The notes under the pieces were generated by a model. It saw only the letters and a program-made list of their open reading frames with translations. It had not been told where the DNA came from and ran no database searches. This document shows, one piece after another, positions 16,111 to 34,309 of a stretch of 64,000 bases of DNA. The stretch is from Hyphomicrobiales bacterium. GTDB lineage: Bacteria; Pseudomonadota; Alphaproteobacteria; Rhizobiales; Xanthobacteraceae. The translations under genes were made by a program, and so were the position numbers. Position 1 is the stretch's first letter. The number at the start of each line of letters is the position of its first letter. The stretch lies in the NCBI GenBank assembly GCA_021730985.1, contig JAKFYI010000004.1:1-64000 (forward strand), written 5' to 3'.

Positions 16111-16112
16111 TC

Positions 16113-16646
16113 ATGGCCCGTATTTCATACATCGAGGAACAGGATCACCCCGAGCTCGCCGCCGAGATCGGCAAGATCAAGGGCGGGCGCGGCGCGCTGC
16201 TCAACATCTACAAGCTGCTGCTGCACTCGCCCGCCGTCTGCATGAGCTGGTTCGAGTACATCGGCGCGGTTCGCTGGAACACCAAGCTGTCGCCGCGTTT
16301 GCGCGAACTTGTCACCGTCCGCACCGCGCAGGCGTTGCGCTACGGCTACGCGCTGCAGCAGCACGTACCGGCGCTCGCACTGGCCGACGGCGTCTCGCTG
16401 GAAGAATGCGAGGCGCTGAAGGACTGGCGCGCCTCCGGCCACTTCAGCGAGGCCGAGCGTGCGGCGCTGGCCTATTCCGACGCCGTCCGGGATGGCTCCG
16501 GCGTGCCCGATGACGTGTTCGATGCGGTGCGCAAGCACTACAGCGAGCGCGAGGTGGTGGAACTCACCGTGCTGACCGGCGTCTACATCATGCACAACCG
16601 GGTCTTCACCGCGCTCAAGGTCGATCTGCAGCCGAAGAAAGTCTGA
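16113..16646 (+). CDS. Carboxymuconolactone decarboxylase-like (AhpD fold) protein without the peroxidatic cysteines
   Basis: 177 residues from ATG 16113 (MARISYIEEQDHPEL; ATG 16107 overlapping the higA stop is the alternative). The CMD/AhpD fold is clear from RGALLNIYKLLLHSPAV, KLSPRLRELVTVRTAQALRYGY and SEREVVELTVLTGVYIMHNRV. In AhpD the helix carries E-x5-C-x2-C-x3-H; here the equivalent TAQALRYGYALQQH keeps the His but has no Cys, so thiol peroxidase activity is excluded and a decarboxylase or lactonase-like role in acid catabolism is more likely. It is followed by a dehydrogenase two bases later and a Bug receptor overlapping that, forming a probable operon. Confidence 0.85.
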   Translation: MARISYIEEQDHPELAAEIGKIKGGRGALLNIYKLLLHSPAVCMSWFEYIGAVRWNTKLSPRLRELVTVRTAQALRYGYALQQHVPALALADGVSLEECEALKDWRASGHFSEAERAALAYSDAVRDGSGVPDDVFDAVRKHYSEREVVELTVLTGVYIMHNRVFTALKVDLQPKKV

Positions 16647-17734: not shown

Positions 17735-18696
17735 TCCGCACAGCATTTGCTGTTCTGCTGACCGCGCTTGCGGCGGCTTCGGCCGCGGCGCAGACCGCAT
17801 GGCCCGACCGGCCGGTCCGGCTGATCGTGCCGTTCCCCGCAGGCTCCGCGACCGACGTGGTCAGCCGCCTGATGGCGCAGAAGCTCAGCGCGCGGCTCGG
17901 CCAGCAGTTCGTGGTGGAGAACCGTGCCGGCGCCAGCGGCGCGATCGGCGTCGATATCGTTGCCAAGGCCGCGCCCGACGGCACCACCATGGGCCTGATC
18001 ACCGCGAGCACGCACGCGCTGGCGCCCGCGCTCGGCACCAAGCTGCCTTACGACACCGCCAAGGACTTCAAGCCGGTTTCGATGATCGTCGCAGCGCCCT
18101 ACGCGCTGGTGCTTTACCCCGGCATCCCGGTGAAGTCGGTCGCCGACCTGGTGGCGCTCGCCAAGTCGAAGCCCGGCACGCTCAACTATGGCTCCGCCGG
18201 CCTCGCCAGTCTGGCGCATCTCGCAGGCGCGCTGTTCGCCACGCAATCGGGCATCGAACTCACGCATGTGCCGTACCGCAGTTCGGCGCAGTCCTCGATC
18301 GACATGATCACCGGACGGCTCGACATGCAGTTCGCGACGGTGGCGCCGACGCTCGCCAACATCCGCGAGGGCAAGCTTCGCGCGCTCGCGACCACCGGCA
18401 CCCGGCGCATGACGGTGCTGGCCGACGTGCCGACGATGATCGAAGCCGGCATCCCGGACTACGACGTGTCGCTGTGGATGGCCTACGCCATGCCGGCCGG
18501 AACGCCGGACGAGATCGTCTACAAGCTCAACGCAGAGATGCGCGCCATCCTGGGCGACGCCGAGACAATCGAGGCGCTGCTCAAGCAGGGATTCGAGCCC
18601 GATCCAGGCCCGCCCGAGGCGGTCGCCAAGCGCATCCAGAGCGAAACCGAGAAATGGCGCTCGCTGGTGGCCAAGACCGGCATCAAGCCGGAGTAG
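17731..18696 (+). CDS. Bug-family tripartite tricarboxylate transporter receptor
   Basis: 321-residue periplasmic receptor with signal peptide (MIRTAFAVLLTALAAASAAA-Q) and Bug motifs WPDRPVRLIVPFPAGSATD, VVENRAGASGAIG, LNYGSAGLASLAHL, HVPYRSSAQSSIDMITG and VLADVPTMIEAGIPDY. The ATG overlaps the dehydrogenase stop (ATGA), so the two are translationally coupled, indicating that the receptor brings in the substrate of the CMD-like/dehydrogenase pair. No permease genes alongside; a shared TctAB must serve it. Followed by a REP-like element. Confidence 0.93.
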   Translation: MIRTAFAVLLTALAAASAAAQTAWPDRPVRLIVPFPAGSATDVVSRLMAQKLSARLGQQFVVENRAGASGAIGVDIVAKAAPDGTTMGLITASTHALAPALGTKLPYDTAKDFKPVSMIVAAPYALVLYPGIPVKSVADLVALAKSKPGTLNYGSAGLASLAHLAGALFATQSGIELTHVPYRSSAQSSIDMITGRLDMQFATVAPTLANIREGKLRALATTGTRRMTVLADVPTMIEAGIPDYDVSLWMAYAMPAGTPDEIVYKLNAEMRAILGDAETIEALLKQGFEPDPGPPEAVAKRIQSETEKWRSLVAKTGIKPE

Positions 18697-18903: not shown

Positions 18904-20256
18904 ATGCCCACCGGCACCATCGACTCCGCCATCTTTCGCGACATTTTCGGCACCGAAGCCATGCGGCAGGTGTGGTCCGACGGCAACCGCATCCAGAAGT
19001 ACTTGGACTTCGAGGCCGGCCTCGCCCGCGCGCAAGCCAAGCTCGGCATCATTCCGAAAGAAGCGTGCGACGAAATTCTCAAGCACTGCAAGTTCGACCA
19101 GTACGACATCGAGAAACTGAAGAAGCAGACCGAGCGGATTGGCTATCCGGTGCTGCCGGTCGTCGCGCAGCTCGTCGATCTCTGCGAGGGCGATCTCGGC
19201 GAATGGTGCCACTGGGGCGCCACCACGCAGGACATCACCGACACCGCGACGATCATGCAGATTCGCGACAGTCTCACGATCATCGAGAAAGACATCAACG
19301 ACATTTCCGATGCGCTGGCCGCGCTCGCCAAGAAATACCGCGACACGCCGATGGCCGGCCGCAGCAACCTGCAGCAGGCGGTGCCGATCACCTTCGGCTA
19401 CAAGTGCGCGACCTACCTCGCCGCGTTCGAGCGTCATAAGGAGCGGCTGAAGCAGCTTCGCGAGCGCGTGCTGGTGTTCGAGTTCGGTGGCGCGGCTGGC
19501 ACCCTCTCCTCTCTCGGCAAGGACGGCCTGCGCACCCAGGTCGAGCTGGCGAAGGAGCTCGACCTCAAGCAGCCGGAGATCGCCTGGCACACGGTGCACG
19601 ACCGCATCGCCGAGGTCGGCTGCTTCCTGGGCCTCGTCACCGGCATCTGCGGCAAGATCGCATTCGACGTGAAGCTGATGATGCAGACCGAAGTGGAAGA
19701 GGTGTTCGAGCCGTTCCACGAGGGCCGCGGCTCGTCGTCCACCATGCCGCAGAAGCGCAACCCGATTTCCTGCGTGTACATCACCGCGCAGACGGCGGTG
19801 GTGCGCCAGCAGGTCGCCGCGTTGCTCAACGCCATGGAGCAGGACCACGAGCGCGCCACCGGCCAGTGGGAGATCGAGTGGATCGTACTGCCGGAAATCT
19901 TCGTGCTGTCGGCGGGCTGCCTGGCGCAGACCAAGTTCCTGATGACCGGACTGCAGGTCGACGAGAAGCGCATGCGCGCCAACCTCGACATCACCAAGGG
20001 CCTGATCGTTTCGGAGGCGGTGATGATGGGGCTCGGGCCCCACCTCGGCCGGCAATACGCGCACGACCTTGTCTATGACATCTGCCGCAAGGTGGTGGCG
20101 ACCGGGCGCCCGCTGGCCGATCTGCTGGCCGAGAACGAGGAGATCGCCAAGCACATGAGCAAGGCCGAACTCGCCAAGCTGTGCGATCCGGCGAACTACC
20201 TCGGCCAGGCCGGCGAAATGGTGGACCGGGTGCTGGCGCTGCGGCAAAAGGCCTGA
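18904..20256 (+). CDS. Fumarase/aspartase-superfamily lyase (adenylosuccinate lyase / carboxymuconate cycloisomerase branch)
   Basis: 450-residue lyase that eliminates or cyclises across a C-C bond next to a carboxylate. The mobile-loop signature GSSSTMPQKRNPISC (with the catalytic Ser) and the WCHWGATTQDITDTA region (HWG-T-QD, proton donor side) are both present, along with RSNLQQAVPITFGYK. The N-terminus (SAIFRDIFGTEAMRQVWSD) is like PcaB and PurB-like catabolic lyases rather than housekeeping PurB. It precedes the molybdenum hydroxylase cluster and could act on an aromatic ring-cleavage product or a succinyl adduct; the choice is open. Start ATG 18904, with moderate upstream purines. Confidence 0.85.
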   Translation: MPTGTIDSAIFRDIFGTEAMRQVWSDGNRIQKYLDFEAGLARAQAKLGIIPKEACDEILKHCKFDQYDIEKLKKQTERIGYPVLPVVAQLVDLCEGDLGEWCHWGATTQDITDTATIMQIRDSLTIIEKDINDISDALAALAKKYRDTPMAGRSNLQQAVPITFGYKCATYLAAFERHKERLKQLRERVLVFEFGGAAGTLSSLGKDGLRTQVELAKELDLKQPEIAWHTVHDRIAEVGCFLGLVTGICGKIAFDVKLMMQTEVEEVFEPFHEGRGSSSTMPQKRNPISCVYITAQTAVVRQQVAALLNAMEQDHERATGQWEIEWIVLPEIFVLSAGCLAQTKFLMTGLQVDEKRMRANLDITKGLIVSEAVMMGLGPHLGRQYAHDLVYDICRKVVATGRPLADLLAENEEIAKHMSKAELAKLCDPANYLGQAGEMVDRVLALRQKA

Positions 20257-20809: not shown

Positions 20810-21673
20810 ATGACACCGTTTGAACTCGCCGAACCGAAATCGCTCTCCGCCGCGGTCAAGCTGCTCGATCCGGACGACACGTCGATCCGTCCGATCGCCG
20901 GCGGCACCGCGTTGATGCTGATGATGAAGGCCGGCGTGTTCCGCCCGGCGAAACTCATCAGCCTGCGCAACATCGAGGCGAAGTATTCCGGCATCGCGGC
21001 CGACGCGAACGGCCTGCGGCTCGGCGCCATGACCACGCTGTCGGCGCTGGAGCACTCCGCCGACGTACGCAAGCTTGCGCCGCTCATCACCCGCACCATG
21101 CTGACGCTCTCGAACGTGCGGGTCCGCAACGTCGCGACGGTAGGCGGCGCGCTGGCGCACGGCGATCCGCACATGGACCTGCCGCCGGTGCTGATGGCGC
21201 TCGGAGCAACGCTCACGGTGGTTTCGCCGAGCGGCGAGCGCAGCATCCCGCTGGATGACTTCTTCACCGGTTACTACGAGACCGTGCTGGAGAAAAACGA
21301 GTTGATCGCGGAAGCGCACATTCCGGCCCAGGGAACGAAGCGCGCAGCCTACATGAAGGTCACCACCGGCTCGGCCGACGACTGGCCGGCGCTCGGCGTC
21401 GCAGTTGTGATCGAAGCCGACGGCAAGGCGATCGAGTCGGCCCGCGTCGTGGTCAGCGCCGCGACGACCAAGGCGACACGGCTGAAATCGGCGGAGACAG
21501 TGCTCAACGGCAAGACCGCCGATGACAAACTCTTGGCACAGGCCGGCGATGCCGCGGTCGAGGAGGCGGAGTTCATCGCCGACGTGCGCGGCTCGGTGCC
21601 GTACAAGCGCGAACTGCTGCGCGTCTACATCAAGCGCGCCGTTCAACAAGCCCTCGCTGGAGGCGTCCAATGA
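20810..21673 (+). CDS. Molybdenum hydroxylase medium (FAD) subunit
   Basis: CoxM/XdhB-type FAD subunit, 287 residues. FAD loops visible: PIAGGTALMLMMKAG (a variant of the AGGT motif) and VRNVATVGGALAHGDPHMD (TxGG loop); C-terminal CO-dehydrogenase flavoprotein domain from about residue 175. It passes electrons from the 2Fe-2S clusters to an acceptor. The stop overlaps the Mo subunit start by four bases. Order FAD-Mo-FeS differs from coxMSL, where the small subunit precedes the large. Confidence 0.92.
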   Translation: MTPFELAEPKSLSAAVKLLDPDDTSIRPIAGGTALMLMMKAGVFRPAKLISLRNIEAKYSGIAADANGLRLGAMTTLSALEHSADVRKLAPLITRTMLTLSNVRVRNVATVGGALAHGDPHMDLPPVLMALGATLTVVSPSGERSIPLDDFFTGYYETVLEKNELIAEAHIPAQGTKRAAYMKVTTGSADDWPALGVAVVIEADGKAIESARVVVSAATTKATRLKSAETVLNGKTADDKLLAQAGDAAVEEAEFIADVRGSVPYKRELLRVYIKRAVQQALAGGVQ

Positions 21674-23970
21674 CGATGGCCCACGACGCCCCCAAGGCCG
21701 GCAGCCAGGTCGGCCGTTCGGTGCCGCGGCTCGAAGGCCGCGACAAGGTCACCGGCCGCGCCGAATACACCCACACCATGCGGCTGCCGGGGATGCTGTA
21801 TTGCAAGCTGTTCCGCAGCACGGTGGCGCACGGCCTCATCAAGTCGGTCGATGTCAGCGAAGCGAGGAAAGTGCCGGGCGTGTTCGCCGTCATCACCATC
21901 GACGATGTCATGAAGGTGATCCCCGATCCGTATTACGGGCCGGCATTCCACGATCAGCCGATCCTGGCCCACGAGAAGGTGCGCTTTGTCGGCGAGCCGG
22001 TGGCCGCGGTGCTCGCATTCGACCCGCACGTCGCGGAAGCGGCCGCCCAGCTCATCAGCGCGGAATACGAAGAACTGCCAGCGGTCTATGACGAGGTGGA
22101 CGCGCTCACCACCAAGACATACGTGCATGATGTCCTGAAGCCGGCCGGCACCTTCGCCGACCTCAAGCATCTGAAGGACGCCAAAGATACCAACATGGCG
22201 CTCGACTACCGGCTGCGCCGCGGCGACGTGGACAAGGCGTTCGCGCAGGCCGCCCATGTGTTCGAGCACGAGTTCAAGACGCAGAAGGTTCTGCATCTTC
22301 CCTTTGAGCCCCATGCGTCCATCGCCGACTACAAGGACACCGGCGTCACCATCTACACCGGCTCGCAGGGTCCGTCGTTCGTCCGCACCGAGATCGCGCG
22401 GCTGCTCGGCTGGCCGGAGAACAAGGTCCGCATCAAGGTGCCGTTCCTGGGCTCCGGATACGGCGCCAAGCTCTACATCAAGCTCGAAGCCCTGGTGGTC
22501 GCGCTGTCGATGATCGCGCGGCGGCCGGTCAAGCTGGCGCTGACGTTCGAGGAGTTGTTCTACCAGATCACCAAGCACCCCTCGACATTCCGCATCAAGA
22601 GCGGCGTGGACAAGGACGGCCGCATCATCGCGCGCAAGTGCGAGGTGTACTGGAACGGCGGCGCCTATGCCGACATCGGCCCGCGCGTGACGCAGAAGTC
22701 CGGCCTCACCGCGTCGGGCCCCTACGAGATCGACAACGTCTCGATCGATTCCTATGCGCTGTACACCAACGTGACGCCGGCCGGCGCGCTGCGCGGCTTC
22801 GGCGTGCCGCAACTCGTATGGGCCTACGAGAGCCACACCGACATGATGGCGCGCGCGCTGAAGCTCGACCCGGTCGAGTTCCGCCGCAAGAACCTGCTGC
22901 GCGAAGGCCGGCCGCATCCCACCGGCACGATCATCAAGGACGCCGCGGTCGAGAAGGTGCTGGACCATGTACTCGACCGGATGAACTGGTCGAAGCCGTT
23001 CGACAAGGGCACCGGCGTGGTGAAGCGCGGCCGCGGCTTCGGCATCGCCATCAAGGCCGTCATCACGCCCACCACTTCGGTCGCGATCGTCAACGTCAGC
23101 GCCGACGGCTCAGCCACGCTCTATTGCGGCACCATCGACATGGGCCAGGGCTCGGACACCGCGATGGCGCAGATGGTCGGCGAGATTCTCAACGTCTCGG
23201 CCGAATCCGTGCGGGTGGTGCCGCGCGACACCGACGTGACGCCCTACGACATGGGCACACTCGGCTCGCGCTCGCTGTTCCACATGGGGCACGCGGTGCG
23301 CCGCGCCGCCGAGCACGCGCGCGACCAGCTCAAGGCCCTGGCACGCGAAGTCGGCGAGCCGGAGGGCTCGAACATCCCGGTCCGCGAACTGTTCGTGAAG
23401 AAATACGGCATGCAGGCCGGCAACGTGATCGGCACCGGCGTCTTCAAGCCGGACTACATCCCGCCGGCTCCGGGAACAGGGCTGTCCGAGAACGTCACGG
23501 CGTTCTGGATGGTGTCGGGCGCCGGCGCCGAGGTCGAGGTCGATACCGAGACCGGTCACGTCAAGATCACCAAGCTGGTCAACGTGGTGGATGTCGGCAA
23601 GGCGATCAATCCGCGGATCGTCGAGACGCAGATTTCGGGTGCCGCGCTGATGCAGCTCGGGTTCACGATGTTCGAGAAGATGCACATCGACGGCGGCCAG
23701 GTCACCAACGCCTCGCTCGCCGACTACAAGATCCCGGGCTTCCATGACGTGCCGGTGGTGATGGACAACTCCCACGTCGACACCAACCAGTCGAACGGCC
23801 CGTTCGGCGCCAAGGGCGTCGGCGAGGTCTCGACGTTCTGCGTGTCGCCCGCGATCGCCAATGCGATCGACGACGCGGTCGGCGTGCGGCTGATGGAATT
23901 GCCGCTCAACCCGGAGTCGGTGTACCGCGCCATCCGCGCCAAAGCCGGCAAGCCGCTGGAGGACGAATAA
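21670..23970 (+). CDS. Molybdenum hydroxylase large subunit (Mo-pterin cytosine dinucleotide)
   Basis: 766-residue catalytic subunit of the xanthine dehydrogenase family that hydroxylates a carbon next to a ring N or carbonyl using water. N-terminal a/b hammerhead (SVPRLEGRDKVTGRAEYTHT; GLIKSVDVSEARKVPG), then Mo-binding stretches GSGYGAKLYIKLEALV, AGALRGFGVPQLVWAYES and GTIDMGQGSDTAMAQMVGEI, and the active-site Glu in FGAKGVGEVST near the C-terminus. The AYXCSFR loop of true CO dehydrogenase is absent (GALRGFG instead), so this acts on an organic substrate. It overlaps both neighbours by 1-4 bases. Substrate unknown; aromatic or N-heteroaromatic acids are typical. Confidence 0.93.
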   Translation: MTMAHDAPKAGSQVGRSVPRLEGRDKVTGRAEYTHTMRLPGMLYCKLFRSTVAHGLIKSVDVSEARKVPGVFAVITIDDVMKVIPDPYYGPAFHDQPILAHEKVRFVGEPVAAVLAFDPHVAEAAAQLISAEYEELPAVYDEVDALTTKTYVHDVLKPAGTFADLKHLKDAKDTNMALDYRLRRGDVDKAFAQAAHVFEHEFKTQKVLHLPFEPHASIADYKDTGVTIYTGSQGPSFVRTEIARLLGWPENKVRIKVPFLGSGYGAKLYIKLEALVVALSMIARRPVKLALTFEELFYQITKHPSTFRIKSGVDKDGRIIARKCEVYWNGGAYADIGPRVTQKSGLTASGPYEIDNVSIDSYALYTNVTPAGALRGFGVPQLVWAYESHTDMMARALKLDPVEFRRKNLLREGRPHPTGTIIKDAAVEKVLDHVLDRMNWSKPFDKGTGVVKRGRGFGIAIKAVITPTTSVAIVNVSADGSATLYCGTIDMGQGSDTAMAQMVGEILNVSAESVRVVPRDTDVTPYDMGTLGSRSLFHMGHAVRRAAEHARDQLKALAREVGEPEGSNIPVRELFVKKYGMQAGNVIGTGVFKPDYIPPAPGTGLSENVTAFWMVSGAGAEVEVDTETGHVKITKLVNVVDVGKAINPRIVETQISGAALMQLGFTMFEKMHIDGGQVTNASLADYKIPGFHDVPVVMDNSHVDTNQSNGPFGAKGVGEVSTFCVSPAIANAIDDAVGVRLMELPLNPESVYRAIRAKAGKPLEDE

Positions 23971-24449
23971 TGACAGCGGCACGCACCATCAGTTTCACGC
24001 TCAACGGCCTGCCCGTGACGGCGGACGTCAAGCCGCATCACAACCTGGTCGAGTTGCTGCAAAACCAGTTCAGCCTCACCGGCGCGCGCGAGACCTGCGG
24101 CCAGGGGCTGTGCGGCTGCTGCACCGTGATCGTGAACGGCAAGGCGGTGTCGGGCTGCCTCTATCTCGCGTCGTTCGTCGAAGGCGCCGAAGTGGTGACG
24201 GTGGAGAGCCTCGACACGCCGCAGAAGCTTCATCCGGTGCAGGAGGCGTTCGTCGAAACCAGCGCGTTCCAGTGCGGCTACTGTACGCCCGGCTTCGTGC
24301 TGATGACGACGCAGCTGCTCGAGCAGCACCCCGATCCGGACGACGACCAGATCAAGCACTACCTGACCGGCAACCTCTGCCGTTGCGCGACCTATCCGCA
24401 GGTGATTGAGGCGGTGAAGCTCGCGGCAAGGAAGCGGAAGGCCGGCTAG
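23970..24449 (+). CDS. Molybdenum hydroxylase small subunit, two 2Fe-2S clusters
   Basis: 159 residues, normal for CoxS/XdhC-type subunits. Plant-ferredoxin cluster ligands Cys43, Cys48, Cys51 and Cys63 (ETCGQGLCGCCTV, SGCL); second cluster Cys102, Cys105, Cys137 and Cys139 (QCGYCTPGF, LCRCATYPQ). It shuttles electrons from the Mo site to FAD. The first base of its ATG is the last base of the preceding stop, so expression is coupled. A palindromic repeat separates it from the flavoprotein gene downstream. Confidence 0.95.
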   Translation: MTAARTISFTLNGLPVTADVKPHHNLVELLQNQFSLTGARETCGQGLCGCCTVIVNGKAVSGCLYLASFVEGAEVVTVESLDTPQKLHPVQEAFVETSAFQCGYCTPGFVLMTTQLLEQHPDPDDDQIKHYLTGNLCRCATYPQVIEAVKLAARKRKAG

Positions 24450-24462
24450 GCCAAATCGGTGG

Positions 24463-24538
24463 TGTCATCGCCCGCGAAAGCGGGCGATCCAGTACCCACC
24501 GATGTTTACTGGATGCCCCGCTTTCGCGGGGCATGACA
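24463..24538. repeat. Rhizobial palindromic element
   Basis: TGTCAT (24463) and ATGACA (ending 24538) bound an element with two internal hairpins: CGCCCGCGAAAGCGGGCG and GCCCCGCTTTCGCGGGGC, plus GATCCAGTA facing TACTGGAT. It may act as an mRNA-stabilising or attenuating hairpin between the hydroxylase genes and the downstream trio. Confidence 0.75.
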
Positions 24539-24554
24539 ACCCAGGGACTGCGGC

Positions 24555-26252
24555 ATGACCGAACCCATGCGAGTCGAGACCGACGTGCTGGTGATCGGCT
24601 CGGGCGCTGCCGGCATGTACGCCGCGATCGAGGCGGCGCGCGCCGGCTGCAACGTGTTTCTGATCGACCGCAGCCTGATCGGGCGCGGCGGCGCCACGGT
24701 GATGGCACAGATGACGGTGGCGGTGGCGCTCGGCGATGAGGGGCCCGACCATTGGTCGCATCACTATCAGGACACGCTGACCGCAGGCCGCGGGCTCTGC
24801 AACGAAGCGCTGGCGCGGCTGCTCACCGAAGAAGGTCCGGCCTGCATCAAGGAGATGGACGCCTGGGGCGTCGGCTGGGCGCGCAAGGACGGCAAAATCA
24901 CGTCAGCCTTTGCGCCGGGCCACGACCGGCCGCGCTGCGTCTATGTGGATTTTCTCAGCACCGGGCCCGCCGTGTCGAGCACGTTGCGCGGCGTGGTGAA
25001 CAAGACCAAATCGATCACGCGCAAAGGCGATCTTTGCGTCGTCGATCTGCTCAAGGCGGACGGCATCGTGACCGGCGCGGTGGCGTGGCATCTCGGCTCC
25101 GGCGCGCCGGTGACGATCTCGGCCAAGGCGACCATCGTCGCGACCGGCGGACTGACCAGGCTGTACCGGCGCAACAGTGCCTCGTCGAACATGGGCGGCG
25201 ACGGCTACGCGCTGGCGCTGCGCGCGGGCGCTCCGCTGCTCGACATGGAATTCGTGCAGTTCTTCCCGATCGGGCACCTGGCTCCCCGCCTGATCGGCAT
25301 GGACCCGATCATGTGGGATCCGTTCCGCTACAAGCTCGGCGGCAAGCTGCTCAACAACCGTGGCGAGGATTTCACACAAAGCTACGGCGTCACGGAGGAC
25401 GGCAAGTACATCATCACCCGCGATGTCGCCACCTACGCGATCATCAAGGAGGTCGGGGCCGGCCGCGGCTCGCCGCACGGCGGCGTCTATCTCAGCTTCC
25501 AGCACGTCCCGGAAGCGAAGCTACGCGAGGCGTTCGGCCCGGTGATCGACCGCCTTGCCGAGAACGGCATCGACCTGACCAAGCAGGCGGTCGAAGTGGC
25601 GCCGATCGCGCACTATCATATGGGCGGCGTTCAGGCTGACGTCGGCATGAACACCGAGGTGCCGGGATTGCTCGTGGCCGGCGAAGCGGTCGGCGGCGCG
25701 AACGGCGCCAACCGGCTGTCCGGCAACGCCATCACCGAGGCCTTCGTGTTCGGCCGCGAGGCCGGCCGCACTGCCGCCAAGCGCGTCAAAGAGATGGGCG
25801 CCCTGCCCTCATCGTCCGGTACGGCACGCGAGGCGGTCGCTCTCATTTCTTCGGACGGCCCCGGGAATTCGCCGAACACAGCCGAGATGCTTGAGGCCTT
25901 GCAACAGACCATGGCCGACGACGTCGGCCCGTTTCGCAACGGGGACGGGCTGGTCCGCGCGCTCCATCGCATCAAGGACATGACCGGCGCGATAGGCTCC
26001 ACGCCATTTGGCACGGGTGCCGCCTTCGACATGCAACGGCTGGACTGGTTCGACCTACGGAATATGCTCACCGTCGCCCATGTGGTGACGCAGGCGGCGC
26101 TCAACCGCACCGAAAGCCGCGGCGCGCACCAGCGCGAGGATTTCCCCGGCATGCTGCCGGAATGGAACGTCAACCAGATCGTTCGTCTCGAGAGGGGGAA
26201 TATCGCCATCGCCCGTGAGCCGGCCTCGGTCAGCAAAGCGGCTGCGCAATGA
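24555..26252 (+). CDS. Fumarate reductase/succinate dehydrogenase-type flavoprotein
   Basis: 565-residue FAD enzyme of the SdhA/FrdA/KstD superfamily. Dinucleotide fold DVLVIGSGAAGMYAAIEAA at residues 9-27. Active-site elements of the SDH family are kept: AHYHMGGVQ (His353), VGAGRGSPHGGVYLS (Arg) and NGANRLSGNAITEA (Arg). The His that binds FAD covalently in SdhA (SHTVAAQGG) is missing (GATVMAQMT), so FAD is probably non-covalent. No signal peptide and no membrane anchor genes, so it is a soluble enzyme, coupled by a four-base overlap to a small 2Fe-2S protein and then UbiD. Likely reduces or oxidises an enoate or unsaturated acid of the same pathway; that role is inference. Confidence 0.9.
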   Translation: MTEPMRVETDVLVIGSGAAGMYAAIEAARAGCNVFLIDRSLIGRGGATVMAQMTVAVALGDEGPDHWSHHYQDTLTAGRGLCNEALARLLTEEGPACIKEMDAWGVGWARKDGKITSAFAPGHDRPRCVYVDFLSTGPAVSSTLRGVVNKTKSITRKGDLCVVDLLKADGIVTGAVAWHLGSGAPVTISAKATIVATGGLTRLYRRNSASSNMGGDGYALALRAGAPLLDMEFVQFFPIGHLAPRLIGMDPIMWDPFRYKLGGKLLNNRGEDFTQSYGVTEDGKYIITRDVATYAIIKEVGAGRGSPHGGVYLSFQHVPEAKLREAFGPVIDRLAENGIDLTKQAVEVAPIAHYHMGGVQADVGMNTEVPGLLVAGEAVGGANGANRLSGNAITEAFVFGREAGRTAAKRVKEMGALPSSSGTAREAVALISSDGPGNSPNTAEMLEALQQTMADDVGPFRNGDGLVRALHRIKDMTGAIGSTPFGTGAAFDMQRLDWFDLRNMLTVAHVVTQAALNRTESRGAHQREDFPGMLPEWNVNQIVRLERGNIAIAREPASVSKAAAQ

Positions 26253-26593
26253 GTGAAATCGCCACCCTCAAAATCTGGCGCGGCTCCGACAAGGCCAACG
26301 GCCACTGGGACAGCCACCAGGTGCCGTTCGAGCGCGGCCAATCGGTGCTCGATGGGCTGCGCTGGGTCCGGGCCCGGATCGATCCGACGCTGGCGATCCG
26401 GTTCTCCTGCATCAACGCCAACGCCTGCAAGGAATGCATGGTGGAGGTTGACGGCGAGACGGTCTATGCCTGCACCGCGCGGCTCGAGCCGCGCGAGATG
26501 CTGCTCACCCCGCTGTCCAACAAGAAGCTGGTGCGCGACCTGGTCACCGAGATCGCCCCTCCGGCGGAACGGTTTGCTGTAAGGGAAAAATGA
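26249..26593 (+). CDS. Miniature SdhB-like 2Fe-2S protein
   Basis: 114 residues corresponding only to the N-terminal Fer2 domain of SdhB/FrdB; the C-terminal domain with 3Fe-4S and 4Fe-4S clusters is absent. Ligands Cys54, Cys60, Cys63 and Cys75 (FSCINANACKECMV, TVYACTARL) have C-x5-C-x2-C-x11-C spacing, one residue longer in the first loop than the C-x4-C of SdhB. It overlaps both the flavoprotein and the ubiD-like gene by four bases, so it is almost certainly the electron partner of the flavoprotein. Confidence 0.88.
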   Translation: MSEIATLKIWRGSDKANGHWDSHQVPFERGQSVLDGLRWVRARIDPTLAIRFSCINANACKECMVEVDGETVYACTARLEPREMLLTPLSNKKLVRDLVTEIAPPAERFAVREK

Positions 26594-28122
26594 TGACGGT
26601 CGAACGAAAGCCGGTTGCCTACGACGGCCTGCGCGGATGGCTGAAGGTGCTCGAAGCCGCGGGCGAGGTGAAGCAGATCAACGGCGAGGTCGATTGGAAT
26701 ATCGAACTCGGCACCATCGCACGTCTGCTGCAGGGCCCGGCCACCGGCCCGTCGGTGCTGTTCAACAACATCAAGGACTACAACAAGCCGGATAGCCGCT
26801 GCAAAAAGGTGTTCACCGGCGCTCTCGCGAACTACCGCCGCATCGCGATGATGATGGGCCTGCCGCCGGAGACGCATCCGCGCGAACTGGTGAAGCTCGG
26901 CCGCAACATCCTGGCCGGTGCGATTCCGCCGAAGGTGGTGCCGACCGGTCCCTGCAAAGACGTGATCGTCAAGGGCGACGCGGTCGATCTCTACGAATTC
27001 CCCGCGCCATTCTGGAATCGGCTCGACGGCGGCCGCTATCTCATGACCTACGGCGGCTGCGTCACCAAGGATCCCGAGAACGGGATCATGAACGTCGGCG
27101 TCTATCGCGGCATGATCCACAATAAGAACCACATACCGATCCTGATGTGGCGCGCCCAGCACATCGGCCACCACGTCACCGCCTGGCAGAACGGCGGCGC
27201 CAGCGAGGTGCCGATCGCGGTGGCCATCGGCGTCGAACCGTCGGTCGAGTTCGTCGCCGGCGCGCCGGTGCCGAAAGGCATCTGCGAGTACGACGTGGCC
27301 GGCTCGATCCGCGGCGCTCCGGTCGAACTGGTGAAATGCGAGACCGTAGACCTCATGGTTCCCGCGAACGCCGAGATCGTGATCGAAGGCTTCCTGCAGA
27401 TCGATCCGGCGAAGTATCTGCCGGAAGGCCCGTTCGCCGAGTTCACCGGCTATCTCGCCGGCGACCCGGCGCCAAAGCCGCCGATCCGCGTCACCGCCAT
27501 CACCCACCGCAAAGACCCGATCCTGCGCGGCACCATCGAAGGCGCGCTGCCGGGGAGCTATTCCGAGAACACCGTGACATCGTCGATCATGCGCGCGGCA
27601 ACGGCGTGGAACGTGCTCGATCGCGCCGGCGTTCCAGGCATCACCGACGTGTGGTGCCAGCCGGTGCAGGCCGGCATCAATCTGCTGATCCAGATGAAGC
27701 AGAGCTACCGCAACCAGGCCAAGCAGGCGGCGAACGCGATCTGGGGAAGTTCCGCGGCGCATGTGCGCTACAAGCACATCACCGTGGTGGACGACGACAT
27801 CGACATCCACGACTACGGCGCGGTCGATTGGGCGATCGCCTACCGGGTCAACGCCGGTGAGGACGACATCATCATCATGCCGTCCACGTTCGGGCTCGGG
27901 CTCGATCCTTCAACGCGCAAGCGCGACCGCAACCCGACGCTGTTCGGCACCGGCAAGTGGAACCGGGTGCTGATCGACGCCACCATGAACCTCGACTACG
28001 ACCCCGATCCTGACTTCGGCGGCGCGCGTTTCCCGCCAAAGGCCTGGCCCGACCAGGCCGACATCGACGCCGTGACGGCGCGGTGGAAGGAACTCGGGTT
28101 GGACGAACCCAAGAAAAAGTAG
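26590..28122 (+). CDS. UbiD-family (de)carboxylase
   Basis: 510-residue prenylated-FMN-dependent decarboxylase. UbiD marks: YDGLRGWLKVLEAAGEVKQI at the start, KDVIVKGDAVDLYEFPAPFW, DGGRYLMTYGGCVTKDPE, NVGVYRGMI and the active-site stretch LPEGPFAEFTGYLAGD with the conserved acidic residues, followed by the long C-terminal dimerisation part. Family members (de)carboxylate aromatic, heteroaromatic and alpha,beta-unsaturated acids. No UbiX-like prenyltransferase is in the window, so the cofactor must come from a gene elsewhere. Translationally coupled to the 2Fe-2S gene; a strong terminator follows six bases after the stop. Confidence 0.93.
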   Translation: MMTVERKPVAYDGLRGWLKVLEAAGEVKQINGEVDWNIELGTIARLLQGPATGPSVLFNNIKDYNKPDSRCKKVFTGALANYRRIAMMMGLPPETHPRELVKLGRNILAGAIPPKVVPTGPCKDVIVKGDAVDLYEFPAPFWNRLDGGRYLMTYGGCVTKDPENGIMNVGVYRGMIHNKNHIPILMWRAQHIGHHVTAWQNGGASEVPIAVAIGVEPSVEFVAGAPVPKGICEYDVAGSIRGAPVELVKCETVDLMVPANAEIVIEGFLQIDPAKYLPEGPFAEFTGYLAGDPAPKPPIRVTAITHRKDPILRGTIEGALPGSYSENTVTSSIMRAATAWNVLDRAGVPGITDVWCQPVQAGINLLIQMKQSYRNQAKQAANAIWGSSAAHVRYKHITVVDDDIDIHDYGAVDWAIAYRVNAGEDDIIIMPSTFGLGLDPSTRKRDRNPTLFGTGKWNRVLIDATMNLDYDPDPDFGGARFPPKAWPDQADIDAVTARWKELGLDEPKKK

Positions 28123-28128: not shown

Positions 28129-28156
28129 GGGGCGCCCAGCCGGCGCCCCTTTTTTT
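28129..28156 (+). terminator. Rho-independent terminator after the hydroxylase/UbiD cluster
   Basis: Stem GGGGCGCC, loop CAGCC, stem GGCGCCCC, then seven T. The clearest intrinsic terminator in the window; it marks the end of the 20.3-28.1 kb transcription unit(s). Confidence 0.92.
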
Positions 28157-29135: not shown

Positions 29136-30611
29136 TCAGCCGGCCTTGACCGACGGCAGCGCCAACGCCGCATCCACCAGCGCGGTGGCGCGCTTGAAGT
29201 CGTAGTTGCGGTACATGCTCTGCTTCACCACGAACGACGCGCCGCCGTAGAACTTCTCGTACTGCTGATGGCGGCTGCCGAACTCCGAGCCGATGAAGTC
29301 CCACAACATACGCATCAGCGCGATACGGCTCTTCGCGTCGGTCGAACCCGAGCACATGTAGCGTTCGATGTCGGCCGCGGTCTCCGGATTTTCGATATCC
29401 GCCAGCGAGGACGGCAGCGTGATGAATGCGGAGCCGGCCAGTTCCCGAATGATTTCCAGCATCCGGCCGTTGAACTCCGACTGCATCGCCGAAGCGGCGT
29501 AGAGCGAGGTGCGCGACGGCCACAGCACGCCATCCTTGTCGATCGTCGCCATCAGTTCGTGCGAGACCAGCAGCGACTCGTAGATCGACGCGAGCGCCGC
29601 CAGTTCGCCCATCATGATCATTACCGCCGGATTGCCCTCGTTGCCGGTGACTTCGTTCATGCGCTTGGCGAGACCCATCATGAAGCGCAGTTTTACCACG
29701 TAGCGCACCTGCGCCTGATGGTTGCCGAGCGAATGCGCGGTGGTCTTCCACCATTGATCGCGGCTGAGCTCCACGTTGCGGTAGATGAAGACGTGTTCCC
29801 ATGGCACGAACACGTTGTCGAACACCGCATAGGCGTCGGACTCGTCGAACCGGCTCGAGAGCGGATAGTCGAACGAATTATCCGCCCGCAGCGCGAACGG
29901 CCGGCGCGGGTAGAGCTTGACGCCCGGAGCCGCCACCGGAATGGCGACGCAATTCGCGTAGTTCTCGTCGCCCGGCTGTAGCGCATGGATGCAACTCAGG
30001 TGGATCCAGTCGGACAACGGTCCACCGGTGGCAAGCTGCTGCGCGCCCGAGATCACGATGCCGTCGTCGCGCTCCTTGACCACGCCGGCATAGAGCGCCG
30101 GGTCGCTCTGCTTGTGCGCCGGTTTGCTGCGGTCGATCTGCGGCGGGACAATCGCGTAGCTCAGGTACAGATGCTCGTCGCGCATGCGCTCGTAGAAGGC
30201 GATCAGGTTGTCGGCGTATTTCTGGCCGCCGGCCGCGAACACGGACGGCACCGCGGCGTAGCCGGAGAAGAAGCTCGCGACGTGGTCGGGCGAACGCCCC
30301 ATCAGGCCGAAGCTCGCCTCCGCCCATTTCTCGGAAAACAGCCGCCGCTCGCGCAGGTCGGCGTGGGTCTTTGGAATTTGATACGCGCGCCACACCGGAT
30401 TGCCCGTCTTGGGCGACTTGAACGTCATCAGTTCGCGGTTCTCGGGCGCCGCGGCGATGTCGAACAGCCGCGCCACCGACCGCGCCGCCTCGCGGAACGC
30501 CTTGTGCATGCTGACGTCCTTCACCCGCTCGCCTTCGACGAACACCTGCCGGCCGTCGTTGAGCGAGCGCAGATAGTCCGCACCGGTCCGCATCGAACTG
30601 CCTGAAGACAT
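29136..30611 (-). CDS. 4-hydroxyphenylacetate 3-monooxygenase (HpaB) family oxygenase
   Basis: FADH2-dependent two-component hydroxylase of 491 residues, typical of HpaB. Matching segments: RTGADYLRSLNDGRQVFVEGERV, TGNPVWRAYQIPKTHADL, GDENYANCVAIPVAAPG, the AVFDNVFVPWEHVFIYRN strand and a helical C-terminus with GSEFGSRHQQYEKFYGG. Members hydroxylate phenols or other aromatics; a flavin reductase (HpaC) is required but none is in the window. Start ATG 30611 is preferred over a TTG at 30638. Divergent from a MarR gene over a perfect palindrome, so an aromatic compound probably induces it. Confidence 0.9.
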   Translation of the reverse strand: MSSGSSMRTGADYLRSLNDGRQVFVEGERVKDVSMHKAFREAARSVARLFDIAAAPENRELMTFKSPKTGNPVWRAYQIPKTHADLRERRLFSEKWAEASFGLMGRSPDHVASFFSGYAAVPSVFAAGGQKYADNLIAFYERMRDEHLYLSYAIVPPQIDRSKPAHKQSDPALYAGVVKERDDGIVISGAQQLATGGPLSDWIHLSCIHALQPGDENYANCVAIPVAAPGVKLYPRRPFALRADNSFDYPLSSRFDESDAYAVFDNVFVPWEHVFIYRNVELSRDQWWKTTAHSLGNHQAQVRYVVKLRFMMGLAKRMNEVTGNEGNPAVMIMMGELAALASIYESLLVSHELMATIDKDGVLWPSRTSLYAASAMQSEFNGRMLEIIRELAGSAFITLPSSLADIENPETAADIERYMCSGSTDAKSRIALMRMLWDFIGSEFGSRHQQYEKFYGGASFVVKQSMYRNYDFKRATALVDAALALPSVKAG

Positions 30612-30663
30612 GGGATTTCTCGCCTGTTGGGGCCGCAAGCGGCCCGGAATTGGCTACAGAATT

Positions 30664-30731: not shown

Positions 30732-31340
30732 ATGGGCTTGAAGCGGACCAGGCGTGGCGCGGGCGCACCGGCCGGCAACGCGCACTTCGCCATGCCGCGC
30801 ACGGTGTCGCACGCTCCGCTGCTCGCGAACGGCAGCGACGAGCCTTTCCGGCAGACGCTCTATCTCATGGTCCTGGCATTCGGCCGCCTGCAGGCCTGCC
30901 GCGAGGCCTTTGGCCGCGCCATGTCGCTGACCGGATCGCAGTTTGCCGTGCTGATCGGCACGGCGTATTGCCAGCACACCGACGGAGTTTCGATCCGCGC
31001 CCTCGCCGACCATGTCCAGCTTGCCGCCACCCATGTCACAACCGAGGTCGGCCGGCTGATCCGCAAGGGCTTGCTTACCAAGCGCGTCAATGCGAGCGAC
31101 CGTCGCGGCGTGCTGGTCAAATTGTCTCGCCGCGGCGAAGCCAGCCTGCTCCAGATTGCCCCTTTCGTGAGGGACGTGAACGATCTTCTGTTTGCGGATG
31201 TGCCGCGCGCCGAATTCGCCGCGGTTTCGAATTTCTTGCGCGGTTTCGCCAACAACAGCGAACGCGCCATTGCCGAGATCGCGCTTCGAGAGCGAGAGCA
31301 CACAACCACCGCAACCTCAAGGCAACGAAAGCGCGATTGA
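30732..31340 (+). CDS. MarR-family transcriptional regulator
   Basis: Winged-helix repressor/activator, 202 residues (a later ATG at 30792 would give 182). The DNA-binding part is VSIRALADHVQLAATHVTTE, GRLIRKGLLTKRVNASDRRG and VLVKLSRRGEASL, with the characteristic DRRGVLVKLS wing. The N-terminal 25 residues are basic and low-complexity, longer than usual. Divergent from the monooxygenase gene and facing the palindrome at 30664. The TRAP receptor gene starts 50 bases downstream and could be co-transcribed, tying uptake, oxygenation and control together. The effector is presumably the aromatic substrate (inference). Confidence 0.88.
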   Translation: MGLKRTRRGAGAPAGNAHFAMPRTVSHAPLLANGSDEPFRQTLYLMVLAFGRLQACREAFGRAMSLTGSQFAVLIGTAYCQHTDGVSIRALADHVQLAATHVTTEVGRLIRKGLLTKRVNASDRRGVLVKLSRRGEASLLQIAPFVRDVNDLLFADVPRAEFAAVSNFLRGFANNSERAIAEIALREREHTTTATSRQRKRD

Positions 31341-31390: not shown

Positions 31391-32416
31391 ATGACTTACG
31401 TTCGTACTGTTCTGGGGCGGCTGGTGGCCGGAGTTCTAGCTGCCGTTGCCGCGGCCCTGGTGACCTTTGGCGCTCCGGCGAGTGCCCAAGAATTCACCAT
31501 GAAATTCGCGACGCTCACCATCAACGACATCCAGCACGAATATATGAAGGCCTATAAGGCAGAGCTGGAGAAGGTCACCAACGGCCGGATCAAGGTCGAA
31601 CTTTATCCCGCAGCCCAGCTCGGCGGCGCTCCGCGGCAGAGCGAGGGGCTCCGGCTCGGAACCATCGAGGCCGCGATCGGACCCGCCGAATTGTTCGTCG
31701 GCATCGATCCGCGCTTCCAGGCACTGGCCATGGCCGGCCTCTTCAAGGATCGCGAGCATGCGCGCCGCGCGCTCGACAATCCGGACCTTCGCAAGCTGAT
31801 CGCCACCATCGGCGATGGGCGCGGGCTCGCAACCGTCGGCTACACGATCTACGACACGCAGATGTTCAACACCAAGACGCCGGTCAACAAGCTCGCCGAC
31901 CTCGCCAACAAGCGCATTCGCGTGCTGGCGTCGGATGGCGAACAGGCCATGGTCCGTGCGCTCGGCGCGAACTCAGTGCCGATGTCGTTGCCGGAAGTTC
32001 TCCCGGCGTTGCAGCAGGGCACGATCGACGGCGTGACCTCGGTGCTCGGCGTTTACGCGGCGCTGCGCTACTACGACGCGGCACCGCACCTGCTGGACAG
32101 CAAGCTTTGGTCGCTGGTGTCTCTTGTTCTCGTCAATAAGCCTTGGCTCGACCGCCTGCCGCCCGACCTGCAGAAGGCCGTGATGGATCTCGGCACCAAG
32201 CTGGAGGCCCCGAACCACGCCTGGCAAACCGAGCGGATCGCCGCCGACAAGGCGGCCTGGGCGAAGAACAACGGCAAGATGACGACGCTCTCCGCTGCGG
32301 AACAGGCCGAAGCACAAAAGCGCGTCATCGACGCGCTGGTCCCGGTGCTGGACAAGAACGCCAATCTGAAGACGTTCTACACCGGCGTGAAGGCGATCAC
32401 CGACAAGGTCAACTAG
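31391..32416 (+). CDS. dctP: TRAP transporter substrate-binding protein (DctP/TAXI-like, DctP branch)
   Basis: 341-residue periplasmic receptor; a signal peptide of about 33 residues ends GAPASAQ. DctP motifs: FTMKFATLTINDIQHEYMKAY, GRIKVELYPAAQLGG, PLPA-like segment reading KLADLANKRIRVLAS, MSLPEVLPALQQGTIDGVTS and HLLDSKLWSLVSLVLVNKPW. The conserved Arg that anchors a ligand carboxylate probably lies in NKRIRVLAS. TRAP systems use a sodium or proton gradient to import organic acids. DctQ and DctM genes follow directly, after a strong hairpin. Confidence 0.93.
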   Translation: MTYVRTVLGRLVAGVLAAVAAALVTFGAPASAQEFTMKFATLTINDIQHEYMKAYKAELEKVTNGRIKVELYPAAQLGGAPRQSEGLRLGTIEAAIGPAELFVGIDPRFQALAMAGLFKDREHARRALDNPDLRKLIATIGDGRGLATVGYTIYDTQMFNTKTPVNKLADLANKRIRVLASDGEQAMVRALGANSVPMSLPEVLPALQQGTIDGVTSVLGVYAALRYYDAAPHLLDSKLWSLVSLVLVNKPWLDRLPPDLQKAVMDLGTKLEAPNHAWQTERIAADKAAWAKNNGKMTTLSAAEQAEAQKRVIDALVPVLDKNANLKTFYTGVKAITDKVN

Positions 32417-32432
32417 ACCGGCCACACCACCA

Positions 32433-32462
32433 CTTGCCCGCGCGCCACCACGCGCGGGCAAG
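32433..32462 (+). promoter_or_regulatory. Intercistronic hairpin between dctP and dctQ
   Basis: Twelve-base perfect stem CTTGCCCGCGCG / CGCGCGGGCAAG with six-base loop. No T-run follows, so it is not a standard terminator. Likely protects the receptor mRNA 3' end and lowers permease expression, giving receptor excess. Confidence 0.7.
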
Positions 32463-32492
32463 ATCGTTCGACACGCCTTCAATCGGTCATTC

Positions 32493-33038
32493 ATGAGCCA
32501 AGCTTCCAACCCCAGCCCAACGCCGCCTCGATCGATCGAACGGATTGGCGAAGGTCTCACGCAGCTCTGCTTGGGAATCGCGGCGGTGGCGCTGATTTGC
32601 ATTGTCGCGATCAACGGCACCAACGTCGTCGCGCGCTATCTCTTCAATGCGCCGTTCAGTTGGGCCGAAGAGATGATGCTGTACTTGATGATCCTGTCGG
32701 TGTTCTCCGGCGCGATCGCAGTAACGTGGCGCAATCTCCACATCCGCATCGACACCTTCATCGAGAGGGCGCCGGCGGGGGTGCGGCGTGCCGCGCTGAA
32801 TATCGGCACCATCATGTCGCTGGTGGTGATGATCACCGTGATCTTCGCCAGCGCGCGGATCGTCACGCTGCTGTATTCCTACGACCAGCGCAGCGAGGCG
32901 CTGGACGCGCCGGTGTGGTTTCCGCAGTCTTTCGTGCCTGTCGGGCTCGGAATCATGGCGGCGATCATGGCCGTCAAGTTGGTGGCATCGCGCTTCTACG
33001 CCGAGCCGCCCGCGGATTCCGCGAAAGAACGGCCATGA
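32493..33038 (+). CDS. dctQ: TRAP transporter small permease
   Basis: 181 residues, four membrane helices (CLGIAAVALICIVAINGTNVVARY, MMLYLMILSVFSGAIAV, IMSLVVMITVIFASARIV, VGLGIMAAIMAVKLV). DctQ marks: NVVARYLFNAPFSWAEE and a WRNLHIRIDTFIERAP loop. It partners DctM as the accessory transmembrane subunit. Its stop overlaps the dctM start (ATGA), so translation is coupled. Confidence 0.92.
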   Translation: MSQASNPSPTPPRSIERIGEGLTQLCLGIAAVALICIVAINGTNVVARYLFNAPFSWAEEMMLYLMILSVFSGAIAVTWRNLHIRIDTFIERAPAGVRRAALNIGTIMSLVVMITVIFASARIVTLLYSYDQRSEALDAPVWFPQSFVPVGLGIMAAIMAVKLVASRFYAEPPADSAKERP

Positions 33039-34309
33039 CACTACTGGTCGTCGGCGTTCTTCCGGCCCTCTTCCTGCTGATGGGAGTGCCGATCTTCATT
33101 GTCCTGATGGGCGCCACGCTGGGCGGCATTCTGCTCAGCACCAATCCCATCCAGGCCATGCACTCCTCGATGTTCGGCAGCCTGGACATCTTCCCGCTGC
33201 TGGCGGTGCCGCTGTTCATCTACGCCGGCGACATCATGGCGCGCGGCGGCATCGCCCGGCGGCTGATCGAGCTGATCCTGGCCATCGTCGGCGGCGTGCG
33301 CGGATCGCTCGGGCTGTCCACCATCGCGGCCTGCGAGGTGTTCGGCGTGATGTCGGGGTCGAGCGTCGCCTGCGTGGCGGCGATCGGCAAGCTCACCATC
33401 CCGTCGCTGAAGAAGAACGGCTACGGCGACACCTTCTCGGTCAGCCTGGTGACCGCCACCGGCGTGATCGACGTGATCATTCCGCCGTCGATTCCGATGA
33501 TCATCTACGGCATCGCCGCGCAGCAGTCGGTGCCGCAACTGTTCCTGGCCGGCTTCGTGCCGGGCATCCTGATCGGCGTGGCGCTGGCGATCTACGTCTA
33601 CTTCTACGCGCGCGCCAAGAATATCCCGGTGAGCCCATCGCCAAGCTGGGGCGAGGTCGCAGTCTCGGTGAAAGATTCAGTCTGGGCGATTTTCGCGCCG
33701 GTCGTGATCCTGGGCGGCATCTACGGCGGCTTGTTCACGCCGACCGAAGCGGCCGGCGTCGCGTGCATCTACGCCATTCTCATCTCGATGTTCGTGTATC
33801 GCGAGATCTCGTGGGGCGACCTTTGGACCATCACCGTCGAGTCGGCGATGCTGAGCGCGCAGGTGCTGATCATCGTCTCCGCCGCCGGCGCATTCGCCTG
33901 GCTGATCACCACCAGCGGCTATCCGGCCAAGCTGGTTGGATTTGTCGAAGGGCTGCAACTGACGCCCTGGATGCTGCTGCTCGTCATCAACATCATCCTG
34001 CTGTTTGTCGGCAGCATTCTCGAACCGCCGGCGGCGATCCTGCTGCTCACCCCGCTGCTCACGCCGATCGCCTACGCGATGGGAATCCATCCGATCCACT
34101 TCGGCATCATCGTCACCGTCAACCTCGCGATCGGCATGTTCATGCCGCCCTTTGGGCTCAACCTGTTCGCCGCCAACGCATTGTTCAAAACACCCCTGCC
34201 CGATCTGTACCGCGGCGTCCTGCCCTTCCTGGCCATCTATCTGGTGATGCTGATGCTGATCACCTACGTGCCCGCCATCACGCTCGTGCCGCTTGCCTTG
34301 TTCAAATAG
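33035..34309 (+). CDS. dctM: TRAP transporter large permease
   Basis: 424 residues with about 12 membrane segments, the size of DctM. Start ATG 33035 (MTLLVVGVLPALFLLMGVP); longer in-frame readings belong to an overlapping dctQ frame. Signature stretches: LLAVPLFIYAGDIMARGGIARRL, SGSSVACVAAIGKLTIPSLKK, IPPSIPMIIYGIAAQQSV, GLFTPTEAAGVACIYA and GMFMPPFGLNLFAANAL. It forms the gradient-driven transport channel. Ligand unknown; the neighbouring MarR/HpaB-like genes suggest an aromatic or unsaturated acid. Confidence 0.94.
   Translation: MTLLVVGVLPALFLLMGVPIFIVLMGATLGGILLSTNPIQAMHSSMFGSLDIFPLLAVPLFIYAGDIMARGGIARRLIELILAIVGGVRGSLGLSTIAACEVFGVMSGSSVACVAAIGKLTIPSLKKNGYGDTFSVSLVTATGVIDVIIPPSIPMIIYGIAAQQSVPQLFLAGFVPGILIGVALAIYVYFYARAKNIPVSPSPSWGEVAVSVKDSVWAIFAPVVILGGIYGGLFTPTEAAGVACIYAILISMFVYREISWGDLWTITVESAMLSAQVLIIVSAAGAFAWLITTSGYPAKLVGFVEGLQLTPWMLLLVINIILLFVGSILEPPAAILLLTPLLTPIAYAMGIHPIHFGIIVTVNLAIGMFMPPFGLNLFAANALFKTPLPDLYRGVLPFLAIYLVMLMLITYVPAITLVPLALFK

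Follow-up and report, generated by a model that had tools for sequence, protein, structure and literature searches.

The DNA analysed here, a stretch of 64,000 nucleotides at the start of contig JAKFYI010000004.1 of a Hyphomicrobiales bacterium (hereafter the window), carries three adjacent genes for a flavoprotein related to the flavin adenine dinucleotide (FAD) subunits of succinate dehydrogenase (SDH) and fumarate reductase (FRD), a small [2Fe-2S] protein (Fer2), and a decarboxylase of the UbiD family, whose cofactor is prenylated flavin mononucleotide (prenyl-FMN). The source assembly comprises 4.45 Mb in 60 contigs and is 86% complete. The three genes and the signal behind them are as follows:

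24555..26252, + strand: SdhA/FrdA-like flavoprotein of 565 amino acids (aa), without the covalent-FAD His and with a rebuilt second carboxylate site
26249..26593, + strand: Fer2_3 protein of 114 aa, the [2Fe-2S] half of SdhB, with Cys spacing C-x5-C-x2-C-x11-C
26590..28122, + strand: UbiD-family prenyl-FMN decarboxylase, with R173/E279/E284 at the catalytic-triad positions
28129..28149, + strand: intrinsic terminator stem followed by a run of T, from a hairpin scan

The flavoprotein gene (FAD in what follows) overlaps Fer2, and Fer2 overlaps UbiD, by four bases (ATGA), as the initial annotation of this DNA had described. The strong terminator that it placed six bases past the last stop is also there: an 8-pair stem, all G+C, begins 6 bases beyond the UbiD stop, precedes the T run, and is the only + strand terminator-like match in positions 18600-30800. 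The scan of both strands gave 5 matches, against 8.4 +/- 3.3 in shuffled sequences; the count itself is no evidence, and the terminator is well formed as a single site. The same-strand gene run starts far upstream of FAD, at 16107 or earlier, which had not been noted before.

We collected related loci through their Fer2 protein, taking the 80 best of 229 stretches reported as relatives (some of which may be SdhB-like matches) together with stretches from further genomes. The resulting 90 loci include the window, and two of them (L055 and L104) are one place counted twice. Gene calls came from a codon-score script trained on the window genes, which missed genes in some loci (L182 most), and the contexts were cross-checked by tblastn. 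FAD lies 5' of Fer2 on the same strand, with at most 300 bases between aligned ends, in 89 of the 90 loci; in the exception (L118), Fer2 begins 160 bases from the contig end. The two genes are fused into a single open reading frame (ORF) in L099 (682 aa) and L104 (701 aa), and unfused junctions overlap by four bases in 11/19 cases and by one base in 4/19. Fusion and gene coupling both speak for FAD and Fer2 making up one enzyme. The FAD-Fer2 pair, not the trio, is the conserved natural unit. Going by record titles, most of its hosts are Alpha- and Betaproteobacteria of soil and freshwater; Xanthobacter sp. YC-JY1 (L131) and Tardiphaga robiniae Vaf-07 (L142) are among them. One locus is titled Klebsiella pneumoniae (L111, CAMDRJ010000180.1); its FAD protein groups with that of a Betaproteobacteria metagenome-assembled genome from Lake Baikal (L110), and the title is probably wrong. 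Two of 30 genomes in the Fer2 genome search (G039 and G135) match at E about 1e-16 to 1e-18 only, and the G135 match (L065) is an ordinary SdhB-like protein of 260 aa. A plasmid search with Fer2 returned 13 records, mostly annotated as SDH iron-sulfur subunits, with a best identity of 34.3%.

The flavoprotein consists of the Pfam domains FAD_binding_2 and Succ_DH_flav_C. Its best sequence and fold matches are SdhA/FrdA, the closest solved chain being Mycobacterium smegmatis Sdh1 (7d6v). We mapped its residues by aligning it with Escherichia coli FrdA and with the SdhA-like protein of the same genome, using the residue roles and numbering of complex II. The SDH active-site residues R289, H353, and R387 are retained and A47 stands at the position of the covalent-FAD His, which bears out the reported combination of a His and two Arg without the flavin-linking His. 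What had escaped notice is the loss of the second carboxylate site, presumably H232 and T244 in FrdA numbering: the His has become F237 and the Thr W254. These features are family-wide. The 88 loci used gave 79 full-length FAD rows, 9 being dropped with FAD absent or partial in the stretch. Throughout these 79 rows R258, R289, H353, and R387 are invariant, as is W254; position 237 is F in 76 and Y in 3, position 255 is D in 76 and E in 3, and position 47 is A in 74, G in 2, S in 1, and a gap in 2, but never His.

The Fer2 protein has four Cys, at 54, 60, 63, and 75, and matches Fer2_3/Fer2_4 only. It had been described as the 2Fe-2S half of SdhB with an extra residue in its first cluster loop, and the loop is indeed C-x5-C, compared with C-x4-C in aligned SdhB chains. 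The full C-x5-C-x2-C-x11-C spacing is found in 88/88 Fer2 sequences and the string C-x-N-A-N-x-C-K-x-C in 81/88, with S for the first N in the other 7. The protein scores 55.2 bits with TIGR00384, below the cut-off of 88, and neither FAD nor Fer2 passes any NCBIfam model. Among the annotated neighbours in the gene run there is no SdhC/SdhD-like, 4Fe-4S, or membrane-anchor gene. From the absence of SdhC/SdhD-like or 4Fe-4S parts, taken with the protein sequences, it follows that the FAD-Fer2 enzyme should be soluble.

Complex II (SDH and quinol:fumarate reductase, subunits A and B) shares with the pair the fold, the FAD-then-Fe-S gene order, the catalytic Arg, one carboxylate His plus Arg, and the D/E-R proton path. 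Unlike the pair, it has the covalent-FAD His, the second-site His and Thr, a three-cluster SdhB, and a membrane subunit. The top matches to SdhA/FrdA might suggest an ordinary SDH or FRD that has merely lost its membrane part. This is very improbable: a distinct SdhA/SdhB-like pair is encoded elsewhere in the genome, on contig C4, and we rejected ordinary complex II on the second carboxylate site, changed in 79/79 rows, and on the NCBIfam SDH/FRD cut-offs, which are missed widely (e.g., 331 versus 567 bits).

Another parallel is urocanate reductase (UrdA). According to PMC7921117, this enzyme keeps R411, R560, and H520, has Tyr373 in place of the fumarate-reductase His, and does not reduce fumarate, whereas its Y373H variant gains slight fumarate activity. 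UrdA and our flavoprotein thus appear to share the retained carboxylate/catalytic Arg-Arg-His and the exchange of the distal His for an aromatic residue, the equivalence being drawn via FrdA. UrdA differs in its covalently bound FMN domain and in being a respiratory reductase, whereas FAD-Fer2 would pass electrons through a separate Fer2 subunit; UrdA also covers the flavoprotein profile weakly (85.2 bits). By this analogy, we read the FAD-Fer2 family as a re-tooling like that of urocanate reductase, here for a substrate with one carboxylate.

Around the trio, the window holds the following genes and elements:

16107..16646, + strand: carboxymuconolactone-decarboxylase-family (CMD) protein, 179 aa (Pfam CMD, 51.4 bits; cluster c30, in 4/90 loci)
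16649..17734, + strand: D-2-hydroxyacid dehydrogenase family protein (Pfam 2-Hacid_dh_C; cluster c19, in 6/90 loci)
17731..18696, + strand: TctC solute-binding protein of a tripartite tricarboxylate transporter (Pfam TctC, 217.6 bits)
18904..20256, + strand: Lyase_1 family protein, PcaB-like by its TIGR02426 and NF006554 scores
20354..20806, + strand: CoxG-like protein (Pfam COXG)
20810..21673, + strand: CoxM-like FAD subunit of a molybdenum hydroxylase (Pfam FAD_binding_5, CO_deh_flav_C)
21670..23970, + strand: CoxL/XdhA-like molybdenum-cofactor subunit (Pfam MoCoBD_1/2, Ald_Xan_dh_C; no NCBIfam equivalog cut-off reached)
23970..24449, + strand: CoxS-like subunit with two 2Fe-2S domains (Pfam Fer2, Fer2_2)
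24470..24531, no strand assigned: facing pair of palindromic repeat units of a dispersed element, between CoxS and FAD (2 matches in the window)
29136..30638, - strand: HpaB-like flavin-dependent oxygenase component (Pfam HpaB_N, HpaB; start codon uncertain)
30732..31340, + strand: regulator-like gene (labelled MarR from sequence alone; cluster c17, in 7/90 loci)
31391..34309, + strand: tripartite ATP-independent periplasmic (TRAP) transporter genes DctP, DctQ, and DctM (Pfam DctP, DctQ, DctM)

The palindromic unit has 73 matches in the genome at up to 2 mismatches, and its reversed-pattern control has 0. Beyond the terminator, a 287-aa ORF (28272-29135) has no Pfam match at 1e-5 and may, by eye, be of outer-membrane type. 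The PcaB-like lyase passes TIGR02426 (3-carboxy-cis,cis-muconate cycloisomerase; 377.3 bits, cut-off 355.75), misses NF006554 (544.8, cut-off 595), and is 90-93% identical across 8 relative loci. The HpaB-like protein scores below the TIGR02309 and TIGR02310 cut-offs. In most loci of the same genus the order is that of the window: CMD, 2-hydroxyacid dehydrogenase, TctC, PcaB-like lyase, CoxG, CoxM, CoxL, CoxS, FAD, Fer2, UbiD, HpaB on the opposite strand, the regulator, and the TRAP genes; some loci miss parts of it. By its gene content, this looks like an island for breaking down an aromatic or heteroaromatic acid.

The molybdenum (Mo), FAD, and 2x[2Fe-2S] subunits together make up a CoxLMS/XdhABC-type molybdenum hydroxylase at the window. 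The genome has about 17 CoxL genes (18 matches, one gene being split), and a second CoxL-like gene of the window itself (60516-62873) is 29-31% identical to the first. A second FAD-Fer2 pair of the same genome, 50% and 53% identical to the window pair, is interleaved with such an enzyme in the order CoxL-FAD-Fer2-CoxM-CoxS/CoxG, followed by a PRK09237-type amidohydrolase and TctC. Tardiphaga robiniae has the order FAD-Fer2-amidohydrolase-CoxL-CoxM-CoxS/CoxG, with 43-74% protein identity to the second-copy set. Of 299 genomes, 38 have this type of amidohydrolase, and by coordinates it lies within about 3 kilobases (kb) of Fer2 in six only (G000, which is the genome of the window, and G004, G035, G074, G095, and G113). 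Overall, Mo-hydroxylase genes lie at most 12 kb from FAD in 19/79 rows, an association that changes at least 8 times on the tree. Other neighbours are more restricted. In one clade, a Rieske-like ferredoxin, recognised by motif (c12, 9 loci), and a ferredoxin reductase-like gene (c45, 4 loci) lie near FAD-Fer2 (in L077 at 3955-4275 and 5070-6272); they are possibly its electron partner, or belong to another pathway. In four loci (L100, L109, L112, and L139) the pair is preceded by a glutathione S-transferase-like gene and by a gene for a protein of 118-134 aa, which in L109 matches no Pfam family. LeuC/LeuD-like genes near the pair in L070, presumably a housekeeping neighbourhood, were not used as evidence.

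The third gene of the trio belongs to the prenyl-FMN decarboxylase family, as initially annotated: the protein matches Pfam UbiD_N, UbiD, and UbiD_C and passes TIGR00148 (294.2 bits, cut-off 244.85), while reaching no UbiD equivalog cut-off. It shares with other members of the family (Fdc1, 7pda) the three domains, the TIGR00148 match, and an Arg and two Glu at the triad, R173, E279, and E284 aligning with the Arg-Glu-Glu catalytic positions of Fdc1. Twelve UbiD matches, this one included, are present in the genome, with a single UbiX above cut-off (contig C55, 10277-10819) for prenyl-FMN supply. UbiD and CoxL-like genes share contigs C2, C5, C6, C13, and C55, which suggests a wider Mo-hydroxylase/UbiD partnership.

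The gene-neighbourhood check proposed with the initial annotation finds the trio again: among 200 related genomes it is present in 10 of the 11 genomes of the genus and in G051, the eleventh genus genome (G006, 79% complete) being without Fer2 and UbiD. The wider distribution is different. A close UbiD orthologue lies near FAD-Fer2 in 14/89 loci, directly 3' of Fer2 in 10 of them and at 1.4-4.3 kb in L078, L081, L085, and L097. Conversely, UbiD places of at least 70% identity number 22 in 21 of the 200 genomes, and Fer2 is immediately upstream in 11/22. A further 9 UbiD loci were retrieved, and their stretches contain neither FAD nor Fer2, although the genome of one of them (G030) has a fused pair on a different contig. 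An orthologous CoxL (68-71% identity) is present in four of these 9 loci (L177-L180), and L176 has CoxG and CoxM at the contig end. In L178, L179, and L180, UbiD follows CoxS directly with a 4-base overlap, like that between Fer2 and UbiD in the window. In another genus, the CoxGMLS-UbiD core stands beside an HpcH aldolase, an isocitrate/isopropylmalate-dehydrogenase-like protein, and alpha/beta hydrolases. HpaB is convergent with UbiD in 8/89 loci, and L174, whose UbiD falls inside the window's clade, has UbiD and HpaB with no Cox genes. UbiD is thus tied to the Mo-hydroxylase and less firmly to HpaB, and in one lineage FAD-Fer2 is found between CoxS and UbiD. Gain and loss look alike here, since the tree has no root.

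These distributions bear on the redox-plus-decarboxylation module that had been proposed for the three genes. The redox half of the proposal stands, as FAD and Fer2 form a pair in 89/90 loci with two fusions, and the trio as a unit does not. The flavoprotein may still act on an enoate that UbiD forms or consumes. A single dedicated module, in which the flavoprotein reduces or forms the enoate of UbiD, would agree with the ATGA overlaps of the window and of 4/6 other measured loci, with the recurrence of the trio in the genus and G051, and with the four further loci where UbiD is nearby. We nevertheless consider it unlikely, since most pairs have no close UbiD, half of the UbiD places have no Fer2 directly upstream, and the 9 other UbiD loci have neither gene. 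As an evolutionary unit the trio was rejected on the same distribution, the UbiD orthologues that lack the pair being mostly beside CoxGMLS. UbiD enzymes require oxidative maturation of their cofactor, according to PMC10865409, and a pair adjoining ubiD in the genus might serve it, e.g., by oxidising prenyl-FMN. Such a role is the least probable of those considered, and we rejected it because in 75/89 FAD-Fer2 loci the stretch contains no close UbiD, and because close UbiD orthologues stand without the pair.

We propose instead that FAD-Fer2 is a soluble reductase or desaturase of a monocarboxylate C=C bond, with the [2Fe-2S] subunit as electron relay, that was recruited into a Mo-hydroxylase/UbiD island for (hetero)aromatic compounds; we give this reading a probability of about 0.62. 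Hydride would move between a non-covalently bound FAD and the C=C/CH-CH bond adjoining the carboxylate. The carboxylate would be gripped by H353 and R387, and R289 would act as proton donor or acceptor, supplied via D255-R258. Because the second SDH carboxylate pocket has become aromatic (F/Y237, W254), the expected substrate is not succinate or fumarate but a monocarboxylate that carries a ring or another bulky end. With no 4Fe-4S/3Fe-4S or membrane part alongside, electrons would pass to or from a soluble partner through the [2Fe-2S] subunit. The ferredoxin reductase-like gene near some copies could serve either direction. In the island, the CoxGMLS molybdenum hydroxylase and UbiD would be the older core, into which FAD-Fer2 was recruited, and the PcaB-like lyase, the HpaB-like oxygenase, and TctC/TRAP uptake would complete the set.

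Several points weigh against this proposal. The active-site roles are predicted by alignment to SdhA/FrdA. The structure predicted for the L104 fusion, whose best fold matches are SdhA/FrdA chains, is of moderate quality (predicted local distance difference test score [pLDDT] 75.9, predicted template modelling score [pTM] 0.74) and leaves the packing of the domains unsettled. None of the probed context genes lies within 12 kb in 56/79 FAD rows, which suggests that the pair serves several contexts and that its link with the Mo-hydroxylase may be indirect. With about 17 CoxL genes in the genome, some proximity is also expected by chance, their density there being below 0.1 per 20-kb stretch (an informal figure for this genome alone).

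The reaction could run in either direction. A desaturase (dehydrogenase) that passes electrons via Fer2 to a respiratory or nicotinamide adenine dinucleotide (NAD) partner is a serious though not the favoured possibility: oxidative catabolism is usual in the soil and freshwater Alpha- and Betaproteobacteria that mostly host the pair, and the Rieske-like and ferredoxin-NAD reductase-like genes near 9 and 4 loci could provide the outlet. A fumarate reductase deprived of its covalent FAD bond retains fumarate reduction and loses succinate oxidation. Since the flavin of FAD-Fer2 is predicted to be non-covalent and the island has no quinone-linked part, reduction of an enoate (or ring) seems somewhat likelier than desaturation.

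A bolder, doubtful extension is a redox loop in which electrons released when the Mo-enzyme hydroxylates a (hetero)aromatic acid flow through Fer2 to the flavoprotein, which would reduce the hydroxylated ring or a ring-opened enoate. The net reaction would be a hydration without NAD or oxygen, and UbiD (window) or the amidohydrolase (second copy) would then complete the opening. The interleaved CoxL-FAD-Fer2-CoxM-CoxS order of L044 and L047 would be the trace of such a loop. A comparable logic is known from nicotinate catabolism in Azorhizobium and Bradyrhizobiaceae, where, according to PMC3511419, a Mo-hydroxylase stands beside a ring reductase and a hydrolase; likewise, FAD-Fer2 copies (L044, L047, and L142) stand beside a Mo-hydroxylase and an amidohydrolase. 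The same paper identifies the 6-hydroxynicotinate reductase as a homologue of the Eubacterium barkeri enzyme. A nicotinate-like scheme (Mo-hydroxylase, ring reductase, enamidase) is weakened for FAD-Fer2, as that reductase is, by this source, another protein, and the amidohydrolase near the pair is PRK09237-like, its closest chains being named dihydroorotase, not enamidase.

The initial annotation knew of no named pathway with this trio, and our searches of open-access papers likewise named no system for the trio, for the FAD-Fer2 pair, or for UbiD with a Mo-hydroxylase. Searches of these papers for ferredoxin-linked, fumarate-reductase-like enoate reductases and for cyclohexanecarboxylate desaturases also named no such system. 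The two-part FAD-Fer2 relative of SDH is apparently undescribed, while belonging to the SDH/fumarate reductase kind. If our reading is right, a family of two-subunit flavin/[2Fe-2S] C=C oxidoreductases is carried in databases under generic SDH or fumarate reductase names, and matches to SdhA/SdhB need not mean a respiratory complex II. The invariant, rebuilt active site would make the substrate class testable, and the family would point to acid-degradation islands that combine a Mo-hydroxylase, UbiD, and an SDH-like enzyme.

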